A stretch of DNA of 36,335 nucleotides from Nonomuraea rhizosphaerae (GTDB taxonomy: Bacteria > Actinomycetota > Actinomycetes > Streptosporangiales > Streptosporangiaceae), in the NCBI RefSeq assembly GCF_019396405.1, contig NZ_JAHKRL010000489.1:1-36335 (forward strand), written 5' to 3'. Positions 27,755 through 32,918 of this stretch are shown piece after piece. The notes under the pieces were generated by a model that had not been told where the DNA came from, ran no database searches, and saw only the letters and a program-made list of their open reading frames with translations. The position numbers and the translations under genes are program-made. Within the stretch, counting starts at the first letter, position 1. Each line of letters opens with the position of its first letter.

Positions 27755-29805
27755 GCCTGCTCGAGGTGAAGGACCTGACCGTCACGTTCGCTGGCGGCAT
27801 CGAGGCCGTGCGCGGCGTCAGCTACGAGGTCTCGCGCGGCGAGGTGCTCGGCATCGTCGGCGAGTCCGGGTCGGGCAAGTCGGTGACCTCGCTCGCCGTC
27901 ATGGGCCTGCTGCCGGAGAACGCCCAGGTCAGCGGCTCGGTCAAGCTCCACGGGCGCGAGCTGCTCGGCATGCGCGAGGACGACCTGATCAAGGTGCGCG
28001 GCAAGGCGATCAGCATGATCTTCCAGGACCCGCTGTCCGCGTTCACCCCCGTCTACACCATCGGCGACCAGATCGCCGAGGCCGTCCGCGTTCACCAGCG
28101 GATCGGCAAGGACAAGGCCGCCCGCCAGGCCGTCGAGCTGCTCGACCTGGTCGGCATCCCGCACCCCGACGTGCGGGCCCGGTCGTTCCCGCACGAGTTC
28201 TCCGGCGGCATGCGGCAGCGCGCGATGATCGCCATGGCCATCGCCAACGACCCCGACCTGCTGATCTGCGACGAGCCGACCACCGCGCTCGACGTCACGA
28301 TCCAGGCACAGGTGCTCGAAGTGCTCAAGACCGCTCAACGCGAGACGGGCGCCGGCATTGTGATGATCACCCACGATCTGGGCGTCGTGGCGGGGATGGC
28401 CGACCGGGTGCTGGTGATGTACGCGGGCAGACCGGTCGAGCAGGGGCCGGTGGACGACATCTACTACCGGCCGCGCATGCCGTACACGATGGGGCTGCTC
28501 GCCTCGATCCCCAGGATCGACGGCGAGGAGGGGCCGCTCGTGCCGATCGAGGGCAGCCCGCCCTCGCCGAGGGCGCTGCCGCCCGGCTGCCCGTTCGCGC
28601 CGCGCTGCCCGATGAAGGTGGACGCGTGCGACGACGAGGAGCCGGACCTGACCGCCGTCGGCGGCGGCCGGCAGGTCGCCTGCATCCGCTCGCGCGAGAT
28701 CGAGGACAAGGGGCTGACCGGCGCGGACGTGTTCCCGGTGCCGGTGATTCCCGCGGACGAGCTCGTACGGGTGCCGCGCGCCGAACGGTCCACCGTCCTG
28801 GAGCTCGACGGCCTCGTCAGGCACTACCCGCTGATGAAGGGCTCGGTCTTCAAGCGCCGCGTCGGCACCGTGTACGCGGTGGACGGCATCTCCTTCGACA
28901 TCGCCGAGGGCGAGACGCTGGCCCTGGTCGGCGAGTCCGGCTGCGGCAAGACCACCACGCTCCAGCAGATCATGCAGCTGGAGGCGCCCCAGGACGGCCG
29001 GGTCGTCGTGCTCGGCAAGGACAGCGCGAACCTGGACAGAAGCGCTCGGAAAGCGCTCCGGCGCGATCTGCAGATCGTCTTCCAGGACCCGATGGCCGCG
29101 CTCGACCCGCGCATGCCCGTCGGCGACATCATCGCCGAGCCGCTGCGCGCGCACGGCTTCCCCGACAGGGTGGATGAGCTGCTCGAACTCGTCGGCCTGT
29201 CGCCCGCGGACGCCGGCCGCTACCCGCAGCACTTCTCCGGCGGCCAGCGCCAGCGCATCGGCATCGCCCGCGCGCTCGCGCTGGAGCCCAAGCTGCTCGT
29301 GCTCGACGAGCCGGTGTCCGCGCTCGACGTGTCCATCCAGGCGGGCGTGATCAACCTGCTCGACTCGCTGAAGGCGCGGCTCGGGCTGTCGTACCTGTTC
29401 GTGGCGCACGACCTGGCCGTGGTGCGGCACCTCGCCGACCGCGTGGCCGTCATGTACCTGGGCAGGATCGCCGAGATCGGCACGGTGGAGAACGTCTACG
29501 ACCGGCCCGCGCACCCGTACACGCAGGCGCTGCTGTCGGCGATCCCGCTGCCCGATCCGGCGATGGAACGCTCCCGCAAGCGGATCCTGCTCGAAGGAGA
29601 CCTGCCCAGCCCGGCCGATCCGCCGTCGGGCTGCCGGTTCCGCACCCGTTGCCCCCTTTTCGCGCGGCTCCCGGAGTCGCAGCGGCGGCGGTGCGTGGAG
29701 GAAGAACCCTCGGTCGTACGGCAGGCCCGCGATCACGGTGCCGCCTGCCATTACGCGGAGGAGATCGAGGTCATCACGGCCTCGGACGATCAGGAGGAAA
29801 AGTGA
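27751..29805 (+). CDS. Peptide ABC transporter ATPase, fused DppD-DppF type
   Basis: 684-residue protein with two complete ABC domains. Domain 1: Walker A GESGSGKS (37-44), signature FSGGMRQ from 150, Walker [13 protein letters not shown], then an oligo_HPY-type Cys motif ([14 protein letters not shown]). Domain 2: Walker A GESGCGKT from 394, signature FSGGQRQ from 495, Walker [13 protein letters not shown], then [18 protein letters not shown]. Most peptide importers encode these as two proteins; here one chain supplies both ATP sites. It powers uptake through the DppB/DppC-like pair. The start overlaps the previous gene and the stop overlaps the next (GTGA). Confidence 0.95.
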
Positions 29806-31514
29806 AGGTTCGGTACAAGGCCACGGCGGGGATCGCCGTGCTGGCTCTGGCTGTCGCGGCCTGTGGCGGTGGAGGCGGCGGCTCGTCCAAGCCGGACGCC
29901 GAGTCGTCCCAGCAGGCGCAGGAGCAGGCCGCGAACCTGCCCAAGCGCTCCATGGGGGACGTCGATTACGCCCAGGTCAAGGACGGCGGCACGCTCAAGC
30001 TGGCGATGACCCAGTTCAAGACCCAGTGGAACTACAACCAGGTCAACGGCACCCAGTCCGACGTCGGCGACGTGGTCGAGCTGATCATGCCGACGATGGG
30101 TCTCGCGGACGAGAACGCCACGGTCACGAACGCTCCCGACTACGTCACCTCGTGGAAGGTCGGGACGACCGGCGGCAAGCAGGTCGTCACGTACCAGCTG
30201 AACGAGAAGGCCGCCTGGTCGGACGGCACGCCGATCACGTACAAGGACCTCGTCGCGCAGTGGAAGGCGCTGAACGGGTCCGACAAGAAGTACCAGGTGT
30301 CCTCGACCGACGGCTACGACCGGATCTCCTCGGTGGAGAAGGGCGCGACCGACAAGGACGTCGTGGTCACCTTCGACAAGACGTACCCGGACTGGAAGGG
30401 CCTGTTCAGCCCGCTCTACCCGGCCGCCACGAACGAGACGCCCGAGGCCTTCAACAAGGGCTGGATCAGCAAGATGCCGGCGACGGCCGGGTCGTTCAAG
30501 TTCGACTCGATCGACGCCACGTCCAAGACCGTCACGTTCGTCCGCGACGACAACTGGTGGGGCCGCAAGGCCAAGCTCGACAAGGTCATCTTCCGGGCGC
30601 TGGACGACAACGCCACCCCGAACGCCTTCGCCAACGGCGAGATCGACGCCTACAAGGTGTCGGTCAACGCGGCCAACCTCAAGCGTGCCAAAGAGGTGCC
30701 GAACGCCCAGATCCGCACCGCCGCCGGCCCCGACTGGCGTCACTTCACCATCAACGGCTCCAGCGAACTGCTGAAGGACAAGAACGTCCGCCAGGCGATC
30801 GTGTACTACGGCATCAACCGGGACGCCATCATCCAGTCCGACCTCAAGGACATGGACTGGCCGGTCCAGGCGCTGAACAACCACATCTTCATGAACACGC
30901 AGAAGGGGTACGTGGACAACTCCGGCGACTTCGGCGCGTACAACCCGGAGAAGGCCAAGCAGCTCCTCGACGCGGCCGGCTGGAAGCTCGACGGTGACGT
31001 CCGCAAGAAGGACGGCAAGGAGCTCAACCTCAACTTCATGATCCCGGCCTCCTCCACCTCCGCCAAGCAGGAGGGCGAGCTGACGCAGGCGATGCTGAAG
31101 GAGATCGGCGTCAAGGTCTCGATCAACTCGGTGCCGGACGACACGTGGGACGTCGACCACCTGATCCCGGGTGACTTCGACATCGCGCCGTTCTCGTGGC
31201 TGGGGACGCCGTTCCCGATCCCCGGCCTGGCGCAGATCTACAAGACGCCGGCCAGCAAGGACAACTTCGGCAGCAACTTCCCGCGCATCGGCACGCCCGA
31301 GCTCGACGCCAAGATGGCGCAGGCCGGGGGCGAGATGGACCCGGACAAGGCCATCGGGTACGCCAACGAGGCGGACAAGATGATCTGGGACGAGGTGCAC
31401 ACGCTGCCCCTTTACCAGCGGCCGCAGATCGTGGCGGTGAAGCAGACCCTGGCCAACTACGGGGCCAAGGGGTTCTCGAGCATCGACTGGACGGGGGTCG
31501 GGTTCACCGGCTGA
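29802..31514 (+). CDS. Substrate-binding lipoprotein of peptide-type ABC transporter (family 5)
   Basis: 570 residues. The signal peptide is followed by the lipobox VAAC with Cys21 and a Gly/Ser tether. [10 protein letters not shown] opens the mature family 5 fold; [13 protein letters not shown] is the conserved family block, and [13 protein letters not shown] is near the end. GTG 29802 overlaps the ATPase stop and has AGGAGG four to five bases upstream. The substrate is unknown: family 5 includes binders of peptides, nickel and some sugars. The operon ends with the terminator at 31529. The gene has strikingly high Lys and Asp use for this genome, as is normal for secreted binders. Confidence 0.94.
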
Positions 31515-31528
31515 CCGTCTGTCCGGTG

Positions 31529-31564
31529 GGTCCCGGCTGGGTCGCCTGGCCGGGACCTTCTTTT
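31529..31564 (+). terminator. Intrinsic terminator of the peptide-transporter operon
   Basis: GGTCCCGGC and GCCGGGACC pair perfectly around an eleven-base loop, followed directly by TTCTTTT. It starts 15 bases after the binding-protein stop and ends just before the DnaA-box cluster. Confidence 0.88.
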
Positions 31565-31570
31565 GCCGAG

Positions 31571-31661
31571 TTATCCACAGAGTTTGGAGTTATCCACAGG
31601 ATCGGGGCGTCAACCCCCTGGTTATCCACAGGGGCGGCGTGGATTTCGCTGCTTGTCCCCA
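31571..31661 (+). promoter_or_regulatory. Cluster of DnaA boxes (three perfect, one near match)
   Basis: TTATCCACA occurs at 31571-31579, 31590-31598 and 31622-31630, each inside the longer identical core GTTATCCACAG. TTGTCCCCA, one base from the streptomycete-style box TTGTCCACA, is at 31653-31661. All point the same way; starts are 19, 32 and 31 bases apart, about two, three and three helical turns. CCCCTG and CAGGGG flank the third box as a short inverted repeat. No oriC marker gene (dnaA, dnaN, rpmH, parA) is in the window. It lies upstream of the hypothetical gene at 31737. Confidence 0.8.
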
Positions 31662-31736
31662 GAACCGCGTTCGGCTGCTCGGCGTCCGGCCCCGATCGCG
31701 GATCCTGAGTGCCTCACCGCACTCCCGGAGGCACCC

Positions 31737-32918
31737 ATGAAGATCGCTCTTCCTCTTCCCGCCCGGCTGACCTCGCACTTCGTCGTGCCCGTCGAGCGTG
31801 GCCCCTTCGACGTCGAGTCGTTCGTGCCATGGCGGGTCGGCGTGCCGTACAGACGGGCGGCCAACGCCGTGCTCGGCACCGCGCTTCTGACCGTCACCCA
31901 CCACCCCGCCCCCTGGAAACCGAACGGCGTCACGCTCAGCGTCGAGGAGCGGCATCTGCTGCGGAGGGCTCGCGAGCACGTGGTGGTGTCATCGACGGCG
32001 CCCTTGCCCGGCCTTCCCACGAGCGTCCAACTGGCCCGCGCCACGGCTCGTGCGCTCGCCCGCGAGTGCGGCGGCCTGGTCATCGACCCGTTGACGGGGA
32101 TCACGCTCCGCGGCTGCCCCCCATGCTCGTCCTCTTCCTTCACCGCCGCCGGCGCCGTCGTCCCCGTGCCACCGAGCTCCCGGCCGGCCGGCCCTCTTCC
32201 CTTCGACATGGCGGATGAGCCGCACGGCTTCCGGCTCGCCGACGACTGGCTCGGCTGGGACGTCCAGGTGCACGCCGACGCCACCTGCCCGCCGTGGGAC
32301 CCGGCCGACACGGGCGCCTGCGACTGCCTCCGGGTCACCTCCCGTGGCCTGCACCGTTTCGCCCTGCCCGAGATCACCCTCGACGGCGCGGCCTGCGCCC
32401 ACAGCCTGTGCGCCACCGGCCTCCTGCGCCGGGTGGCCCACCGGCTGGTCACCGACCACCTGTCCTACCTCGCCACCCACCCGGACACCGGGGAGCGCCT
32501 GATCGACGATCACCTGCGCATAGAAGCCCCGCTCTCACCGGACGAGCGCGCCGGCTCCCCGTTCACCGTCCGCCTGACCCCCTGCGACACGGACCCGGCC
32601 GCCCACGGCCGCGTCACCCGCCTGAAAGTCGCCCCACCGCCCACGGCCCAGGCCGCCCGCCGCGTCCCGGCGCCCCGCACGGGCCCCGACCGGCTCGCCC
32701 GTGTGGCCCTGGCCCCTGGATCGCCACAGATCACCAGCCCGCTCGCCCTCGCCACACCCCCTCCCGCTCGCCGGGTCACCCACCTCAAGGTGGGCCCGCC
32801 GCTGGGGTTCACCGGCTCACTCAACGACTGGCTCTGCGCCACCCAACGCCCCGCAGCCGCCGCCTCCCACGCGGCCGGCTACGACCTGACCGACCCCTCA
32901 TCCGTCCTGGCCGCATAG
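31737..32918 (+). CDS. Hypothetical protein, 393 aa, with a duplicated C-terminal motif
   Basis: No family recognised. ATG 31737 has GGAGG five bases upstream; the frame is open back to 31563 but that part covers the DnaA boxes and reads as non-coding. The middle is Cys-containing (GCPPCSSSSF, CPPWDPADTGACDC), and two C-terminal segments repeat: RVTRLKVAPPP near 292 and RVTHLKVGPPL near 346, separated by a Pro/Ala-rich linker. No signal peptide or membrane helix is seen. The protein starts MKIALPLPARLTSHFVVPVE. Codon bias is strong throughout, so it is a real gene. Its position right after the DnaA-box cluster may mean DnaA control (inference). Confidence 0.75.
   Translation: MKIALPLPARLTSHFVVPVERGPFDVESFVPWRVGVPYRRAANAVLGTALLTVTHHPAPWKPNGVTLSVEERHLLRRAREHVVVSSTAPLPGLPTSVQLARATARALARECGGLVIDPLTGITLRGCPPCSSSSFTAAGAVVPVPPSSRPAGPLPFDMADEPHGFRLADDWLGWDVQVHADATCPPWDPADTGACDCLRVTSRGLHRFALPEITLDGAACAHSLCATGLLRRVAHRLVTDHLSYLATHPDTGERLIDDHLRIEAPLSPDERAGSPFTVRLTPCDTDPAAHGRVTRLKVAPPPTAQAARRVPAPRTGPDRLARVALAPGSPQITSPLALATPPPARRVTHLKVGPPLGFTGSLNDWLCATQRPAAAASHAAGYDLTDPSSVLAA

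Follow-up and report, generated by a model that had tools for sequence, protein, structure and literature searches.

Transformation in the actinobacterium Micrococcus luteus depends on Tad/Flp genes together with comEA-comEC, as described in four reports (PMC4322843, PMC8467076, PMC12849477, PMC6667448). In these reports, point mutations in or before the gene for a small HTH_17 protein (Mlut_14660) that lies beside the pilus genes are described as altering comEA expression (PMC8467076), and loss of an IclR-type regulator (Mlut_08730) as lowering transformation (PMC6667448). ComK, SigX and CRP/Sxy are mentioned in PMC8467076, M. luteus itself is without ComK and ComX (PMC12849477), and as late as 2026 the upstream signals and regulators of its competence are said to remain to be identified (PMC12849477). 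A promoter element is not described in the sections examined of these four reports. Among the open-access papers returned by literature searches, likewise, none has a title or abstract opening that describes the element treated below, subscription papers lying beyond the scope; the one paper returned on Nonomuraea together with natural transformation is a review.

The window analysed here is the whole of a 36,335-nucleotide stretch of DNA from Nonomuraea rhizosphaerae, which is one contig (C312) of a 5.9 Mb metagenome-derived assembly that is 64% complete. Ahead of a gene for a 393-aa protein it carries a short composite element that recurs, in this and related genomes, before comEA-comEC, Tad/Flp genes and genes for DNA processing.

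Box cluster and promoter element

The original prediction had described a same-strand cluster of DnaA boxes at 31571-31661, and the cluster is confirmed as three copies of TTATCCACAG and one TTGTCCCCAG on the + strand. It sits in the gap between a gene for an SBP_bac_5 binding protein (29649-31514, + strand), an upstream neighbour outside the system, and the 393-aa gene (31737-32918, + strand), which lies downstream of the element. A terminator-like hairpin with a 14-pair stem and a T run is found 3' of the SBP_bac_5 gene (31528-31558, + strand; mean in shuffles 0.3, sd 0.6). The 9-mer TTATCCACA occurs on the + strand at 31571-31579, 31590-31598 and 31622-31630, each time within GTTATCCACAG. 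Taken as TTATCCACAG, the distal boxes on this strand are box 1 (31571-31580), box 2 (31590-31599), 19 bp past box 1, and box 3 (31622-31631), 32 bp past box 2 and 31 bp ahead of the proximal box. The near match TTGTCCCCA, at 31653-31661 on the + strand and 31 bases past the third TTATCCACA, is the start of the conserved proximal element. With at most one mismatch, TTATCCACA has five matches in the window, against a mean of 1.23 and a maximum of 4 in 100 shuffles, and 3 of the 15 copies of TTATCCACAG in the 5.9 Mb assembly are those of the cluster (reversed control, 0); the cluster is therefore not a chance occurrence, in line with the original prediction. The pattern TTRTCCACA occurs 41 times in the assembly, and by position 9 of the 41 fall in promoters bearing 7 of the 9 element copies described below.

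No Rfam family is matched at gathering scores within 31300-31900, and no sigma-70 consensus promoter is found within 31450-31760. Neither DnaA (PF00308) nor ComEC (PF03772) is matched in the assembly, a result probably due to its completeness of only 64%, and for the same reason little can be read from the absence of oriC genes.

The box that is conserved is the fourth, "near" one, which opens a promoter element with the consensus TCCMCAGAAYNNNRTTCG. In the window this proximal composite element reads TCCCCAGAACCGCGTTCG (31656-31673, + strand) and contains the inverted repeat GAAC-N3-GTTC. It is followed on the same strand by a predicted -10 hexamer, GATCCT (31701-31706; xAnnnT at offsets 27-32 after the element), and by GGAGG (31727-31731), by its sequence a likely ribosome-binding site. 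Exact copies of the element number nine in the N. rhizosphaerae genome, where the reversed pattern gives 0, and five to eight in each of five relatives, where the reversed controls give none. Across 68 distinct exact copies, the xAnnnT at offsets 27-32 has A at offset 28 in 76% and T at offset 32 in 81%, which places the element at a set distance from the core promoter, and no -35 is conserved. If xAnnnT is the -10, the element would cover about -57 to -40 and a further box 31 bp upstream would lie near -88, a layout usual for activator sites.

Within 100 bp of the 68 copies there are 48 upstream boxes, 18 of them at 31 bp, the commonest spacing, 29 at 29-32 bp and 7 at 18 bp, the core columns being fixed by the search pattern here as in the counts for presumed oriC sites and for class-wide yraN given below. 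A distal box at 29-32 bp is present for only 29 of the 68 elements. Of the 138 same-strand TCCACAG pairs counted in eight relatives, 84 have a spacing of 29-33 bp; with every spacing from 22 to 52 equally likely, 22 would fall in that range. These eight are the ones of 14 genomes that were listed in full, orthologous pairs recur and the counts are not independent, and some of the pairs outside 29-33 bp belong to the dnaA region.

The inverted repeat was also compared with the LexA/SOS box, GAAC-N4-GTTC, which was rejected: the repeat in the window is GAAC-CGC-GTTC, with three bases between its arms, and the N3 form is found in the ortholog sites inspected as well.

Boxes or box-like repeats are arrayed on two other contigs of the assembly. 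At about 2301-2580 of locus L057 (contig C186), between an rplI-like gene, recognised by eye, and the next gene, five TCCACAG boxes follow in a row, several of them about 31 bp apart, forming a candidate array outside the com genes; this contig has another box (L003) immediately ahead of a 496-aa ORF. At about 2435-2505 of locus L054 (contig C336) three copies of TTGTCCACA recur at intervals of exactly 30 bp within the beginning of an ORF. These are probably a coding tandem repeat and, lying inside an ORF, were left out of the analysis.

Conservation ahead of the 393-aa gene

The 393-aa gene was matched in 23 of 41 genomes tried, N. rhizosphaerae included, all of one genus. A set of 36 named loci is almost entirely from Nonomuraea and also includes [Actinomadura] parvosata, Thermoactinospora rubra and Microbispora oryzae. 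Throughout, loci L039-L045, which duplicate others, were not counted a second time. The part kept before the orthologs is TCC(A/C)CAGAAY-NNN-RTTCG, mostly 75-135 bp ahead of the start codon. In the first set, comprising 22 of the 23 loci (the gene start is absent from L037), the element is present with at most two mismatches before 21 of 22 orthologs; the other one has 6 mismatches, the reverse-complement control 4-7 and the inside-gene control 5-7. In the named set, comprising 34 of the 36 loci (gene start absent from L219 and L224), 33 of 34 orthologs have it within the same mismatch limit. Nonomuraea jabiensis (L192/L019) is the exception in both, with no element upstream of its 393-aa gene. 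The original prediction had looked to the intergenic region of relatives for conservation of the boxes; the number of boxes varies between orthologs, and it is the proximal element and the gene that are conserved. The N. jabiensis stretch ahead of the gene carries short repeats resembling CAGCAGTCCACC.

The 393-aa protein has no match in Pfam or NCBIfam. Its AlphaFold2 model is partly confident (mean pLDDT 69) and suggests an alpha/beta N-terminal domain. ZipA is the best match both in Foldseek (E 0.012) and in VIA-align (Z 6.0; 94 residues, 3.5 A), where many unrelated rows follow within 1-2 Z; given such weak matches amid unrelated ones, no function is claimed for the protein. Directly under the element in two other genera, L118:574-1467 and L122:627-1460 encode diverged relatives. 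A profile comparison aligns these with the 393-aa family across 264 columns (from shallow alignments; probability 96, E 2.5e-9), and they reach only 10.5 bits in a plain HMM search. On the profile comparison, the family is wider than plain sequence search indicated. Judged by its promoter alone, the 393-aa protein is a putative accessory competence protein.

Genes under the element

In N. rhizosphaerae the nine genes under the element encode two SSBs, a DUF559/MTES_1575-like protein (an assignment below Pfam cut-offs), an M23 peptidase, YraN, a DUF4244 protein that is probably a Flp pilin, TadZ/Ssd, MTAP and the 393-aa protein. In an order-wide survey of 297 genomes the exact element occurs in 181, comprising 181 of 293 in the own family and 0 of 4 elsewhere, with six control matches counted; by genus, 37 of 62 have exact matches and 25 have none. 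Thirty sites from 11 other genera were examined for the gene that follows, one site per genome and with 10 of the 30 genomes from one genus, and 18 of them precede ComEA (4), YraN (4), DUF4244/TadE (4), TadZ/Ssd (5) or SSB (1). The rest of this set precedes DUF4192 (2), diverged 393-aa relatives (2), M23 (1), an MTES_1575-like protein (1, below cut-off), a ParA-like ATPase (1) and prephenate dehydratase (1), and 4 of the 30 are without an assigned gene (L117, scanned without a match; L101, without a clear ORF; L112 and L114, left out of the scan). In both genomes inspected (G105, G024) comM follows yraN, with dprA next in G105. One element is in this way common to promoters of DNA uptake and DNA processing, namely those of comEA-comEC, yraN-comM-dprA, SSB, TadZ and DUF4244. 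No regulator gene was found among the genes under the element, and the ORF lists of two tad regions, inspected by eye, hold no recognisable regulator.

MTAP (S-methyl-5'-thioadenosine phosphorylase) lies directly under the element in N. rhizosphaerae (L056, 2384-3246, by HMM) and in N. jabiensis (L072, by eye), and is an odd member for a competence regulon.

A weight matrix was trained on 21 promoters of 393-aa-gene orthologs only, the locus without the element (L019) being excluded from the training and yet counted as the miss above, and was then run, in 30 genomes, against the DNA ahead of the ComEC domain and the surroundings of YraN. These genomes were selected on the basis of exact matches, or the lack of them, in the genus; some of the matches had already been noted at comEA or yraN, so that the hold-out is by gene rather than by genome. 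Ahead of comEA-comEC a score of at least 18 is reached in 20 genomes out of 29, comprising 18 out of 22 where the genus has exact matches and 2 out of 7 where it has none. At yraN it is reached in 21 out of 30, comprising 21 out of 23 and 0 out of 7, respectively. The cut of 18 was chosen post hoc at a gap in the scores, with matches at 18.3 or above and the rest at 11.9 or below. The reversed control scores at most 10.9. All matches read in the same direction as the gene, and at yraN 19 out of 21 lie 98-101 bp ahead of the YraN domain. By profile, the comEA element is missed in G298, G093, G117, G001 and 5 of the 7 genomes of genera without exact matches, two of these misses (G001 and, among the five, G042) being cut by contig ends; the yraN element is missed in G117, G093 and all 7 genomes of genera without exact matches. 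The yraN promoters in genera without the full element still bear a TCCACAG box.

Reach of the box across the class

Within the 250 bp ahead of yraN, forward TCC[AC]CAG is present at 28 of 28 loci of the own family, at 21 of 29 loci representing 20 further families of the class, and at 0 of 24 loci from other classes. The same pattern in other windows of these loci, taken as background, gives 3/280, 2/290 and 5/240, and the reversed pattern upstream of yraN gives 2/28 in the family and 1/29 in the class. The class list draws on 29 of 53 matched genomes of other families and leaves out L302 (contig edge) and L307 (same family), and the other-class list draws on 24 of 35; the remaining genomes were without the locus or dropped. 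Loci shorter than 3200 bases (L160, L188, L262 and L263) were dropped from the yraN count, and of these L160 and L188 do bear a box. Among 24 class loci taken with a slightly wider box, 17 have xAnnnT at a distance of 45-47 nt from it; the best single position of xAnnnT at class yraN is shared by 7 loci, where 2000 shuffles give 2.4 on average and never more than 6. On these counts, much of the class seems to share both the box and its spacing from the -10 at yraN, the one gene at which this was tested. The inverted repeat looks like a local elaboration.

Discussion

What is observed is the element and where it lies, the -10-like hexamer and the genes that follow; on this basis the cluster is quite probably the operator part of an activator-dependent promoter belonging to a competence regulon of Streptosporangiaceae-type actinobacteria. 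A DNA-binding activator would recognise TCCACAG-type boxes, of which the proximal one is fused to the inverted repeat (TCCMCAGAAYNNNRTTCG, about -57 to -40) and is often accompanied by one or more distal boxes about 31 bp, or three helical turns, apart. The bound activator would recruit RNA polymerase to a -10 hexamer lacking a good -35, and would thereby switch on comEA-comEC for DNA uptake, the Tad/Flp pilus, and yraN-comM-dprA and the SSBs for DNA processing, along with accessory genes that would include the one for the 393-aa protein. A simpler form of the promoter would act ahead of yraN in much of the class, and the element may be a common switch for natural transformation in actinobacteria. 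The activator site, the joint switching-on of these genes and competence as their output are predictions from sequence. Several results count against this reading: genes with no evident competence role under the element (MTAP, DUF4192, prephenate dehydratase and a ParA-like ATPase), the four sites without an assigned gene, the profile misses at comEA and yraN, the distal box at 29-32 bp in only 29 of the 68 elements, the N. jabiensis locus without the element, the 25 of 62 genera without exact matches, and the search for a regulator gene under the element, which found none.

One proposal of the original prediction was that DnaA controls a promoter of the gene at 31737. The part that concerns a promoter is strongly supported; for the part that concerns DnaA, the TCCACAG core is kept and the 5' TTR is often lost. 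DnaA itself as the activator would be a special case of the regulon reading, one that would couple DNA-uptake genes to the replication cycle, and we regard it as a rather unlikely case, with DnaA nevertheless a serious candidate for the reader of the element. The boxes in the window are perfect DnaA boxes, and DnaA is universal, which is consistent with the class-wide conservation. Downstream of dnaA, a stretch presumed to be oriC, 116 sites in 8 Nonomuraea genomes fit TCC[AC]C[AG], with G next in 69%. The complete TTRTCCACA, however, is not kept in the orthologous promoters. The 5' half of the box is also variable ahead of the 393-aa gene, forward TT[AG]TCC[AC]CA occurs at only 7 of 29 class yraN loci whereas TCC[AC]CAG occurs at 21 of 29, and C takes the place of the second T of the DnaA box in 59% of 39 class-wide yraN boxes, class-type boxes being GTCGTCCACAG. 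The proximal element also has an inverted repeat that the DnaA box is not known to contain. All 29 of 29 distal boxes read TCCACA, against 47% TCCCC at the presumed oriC, a comparison that is weak because the oriC sites are themselves loose, with T in 57-59% at their first and second positions. TCCCC does occur among the proximal boxes. It is similarly unlikely that DnaA, or a factor reading the same core, serves as a class-wide master activator of competence in Actinomycetes. If it did, com promoters would be made of DnaA-type boxes phased by three helical turns, and uptake and recombination genes would follow the state of the replication cycle.

Slightly less likely still, the regulon could belong to another process, such as envelope or Tad pilus development or general recombination, that shares competence genes and does not serve DNA uptake. 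Such a process would accommodate the cell-wall hydrolases under the element (M23, NlpC/P60) as well as the genes for MTAP, DUF4192 and prephenate dehydratase. It fits less well with the occurrence of comEA, the yraN-comM-dprA operon, SSB and Tad pilus genes under one element, since the role of ComEA-ComEC in DNA uptake is established.

A datA-like locus titrating DnaA away from oriC, with any promoter role secondary, is very improbable and found no support. The four boxes in 91 bp do lie distant from dnaA in two relatives (orthologous gene at 4,898,593 and DnaA C-terminal domain at 3,050,220 in G010; 8,303,487 and 10,175,572 in G023; about 1.85 Mb in each), but box number differs among orthologs and what is conserved is the proximal element, tied to one gene family and at a fixed distance from the -10, with the same element at the promoters of one coherent functional set. 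The plasmid or secondary origin raised along with it found no support either: none of the six window proteins scanned is a rep protein, and the orthologs with boxes lie on long contigs of genus-mates (up to 13 Mb), two of them about 1.85 Mb from dnaA.

On the reading as an activator-dependent competence promoter, the element could serve as a bait for the missing regulator and as a marker for possibly competent species, and it nominates candidate competence genes, e.g. the 393-aa family and DUF4192. The question of how DNA uptake is controlled in actinobacteria would in this way become testable. Transformation would also be a useful tool in Nonomuraea and its relatives, which produce antibiotics.

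Comparison with known systems

Clusters of DnaA boxes at oriC and datA have the 9-mer TTATCCACA in common with the window, whereas the element has a set position relative to the -10, recurs at com promoters and has an unconserved 5' half. The CRP/Sxy sites of gammaproteobacteria are likewise activator sites upstream of a core promoter in a competence regulon; they differ in sequence and in clade. The competence promoters of Bacillota, with the ComK box or the ComX/SigX cin-box, similarly place one short element before DNA-uptake, dprA, ssb and pilus genes. In contrast to these, the promoters described here have boxes about 31 bp apart and an inverted repeat upstream of an xAnnnT -10, and to our knowledge the sequences of the ComK box and the cin-box are unrelated to the element. 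The com/Tad system of M. luteus resembles the gene set of the element in joining Tad/Flp genes with comEA-comEC, and does so within an actinobacterium.
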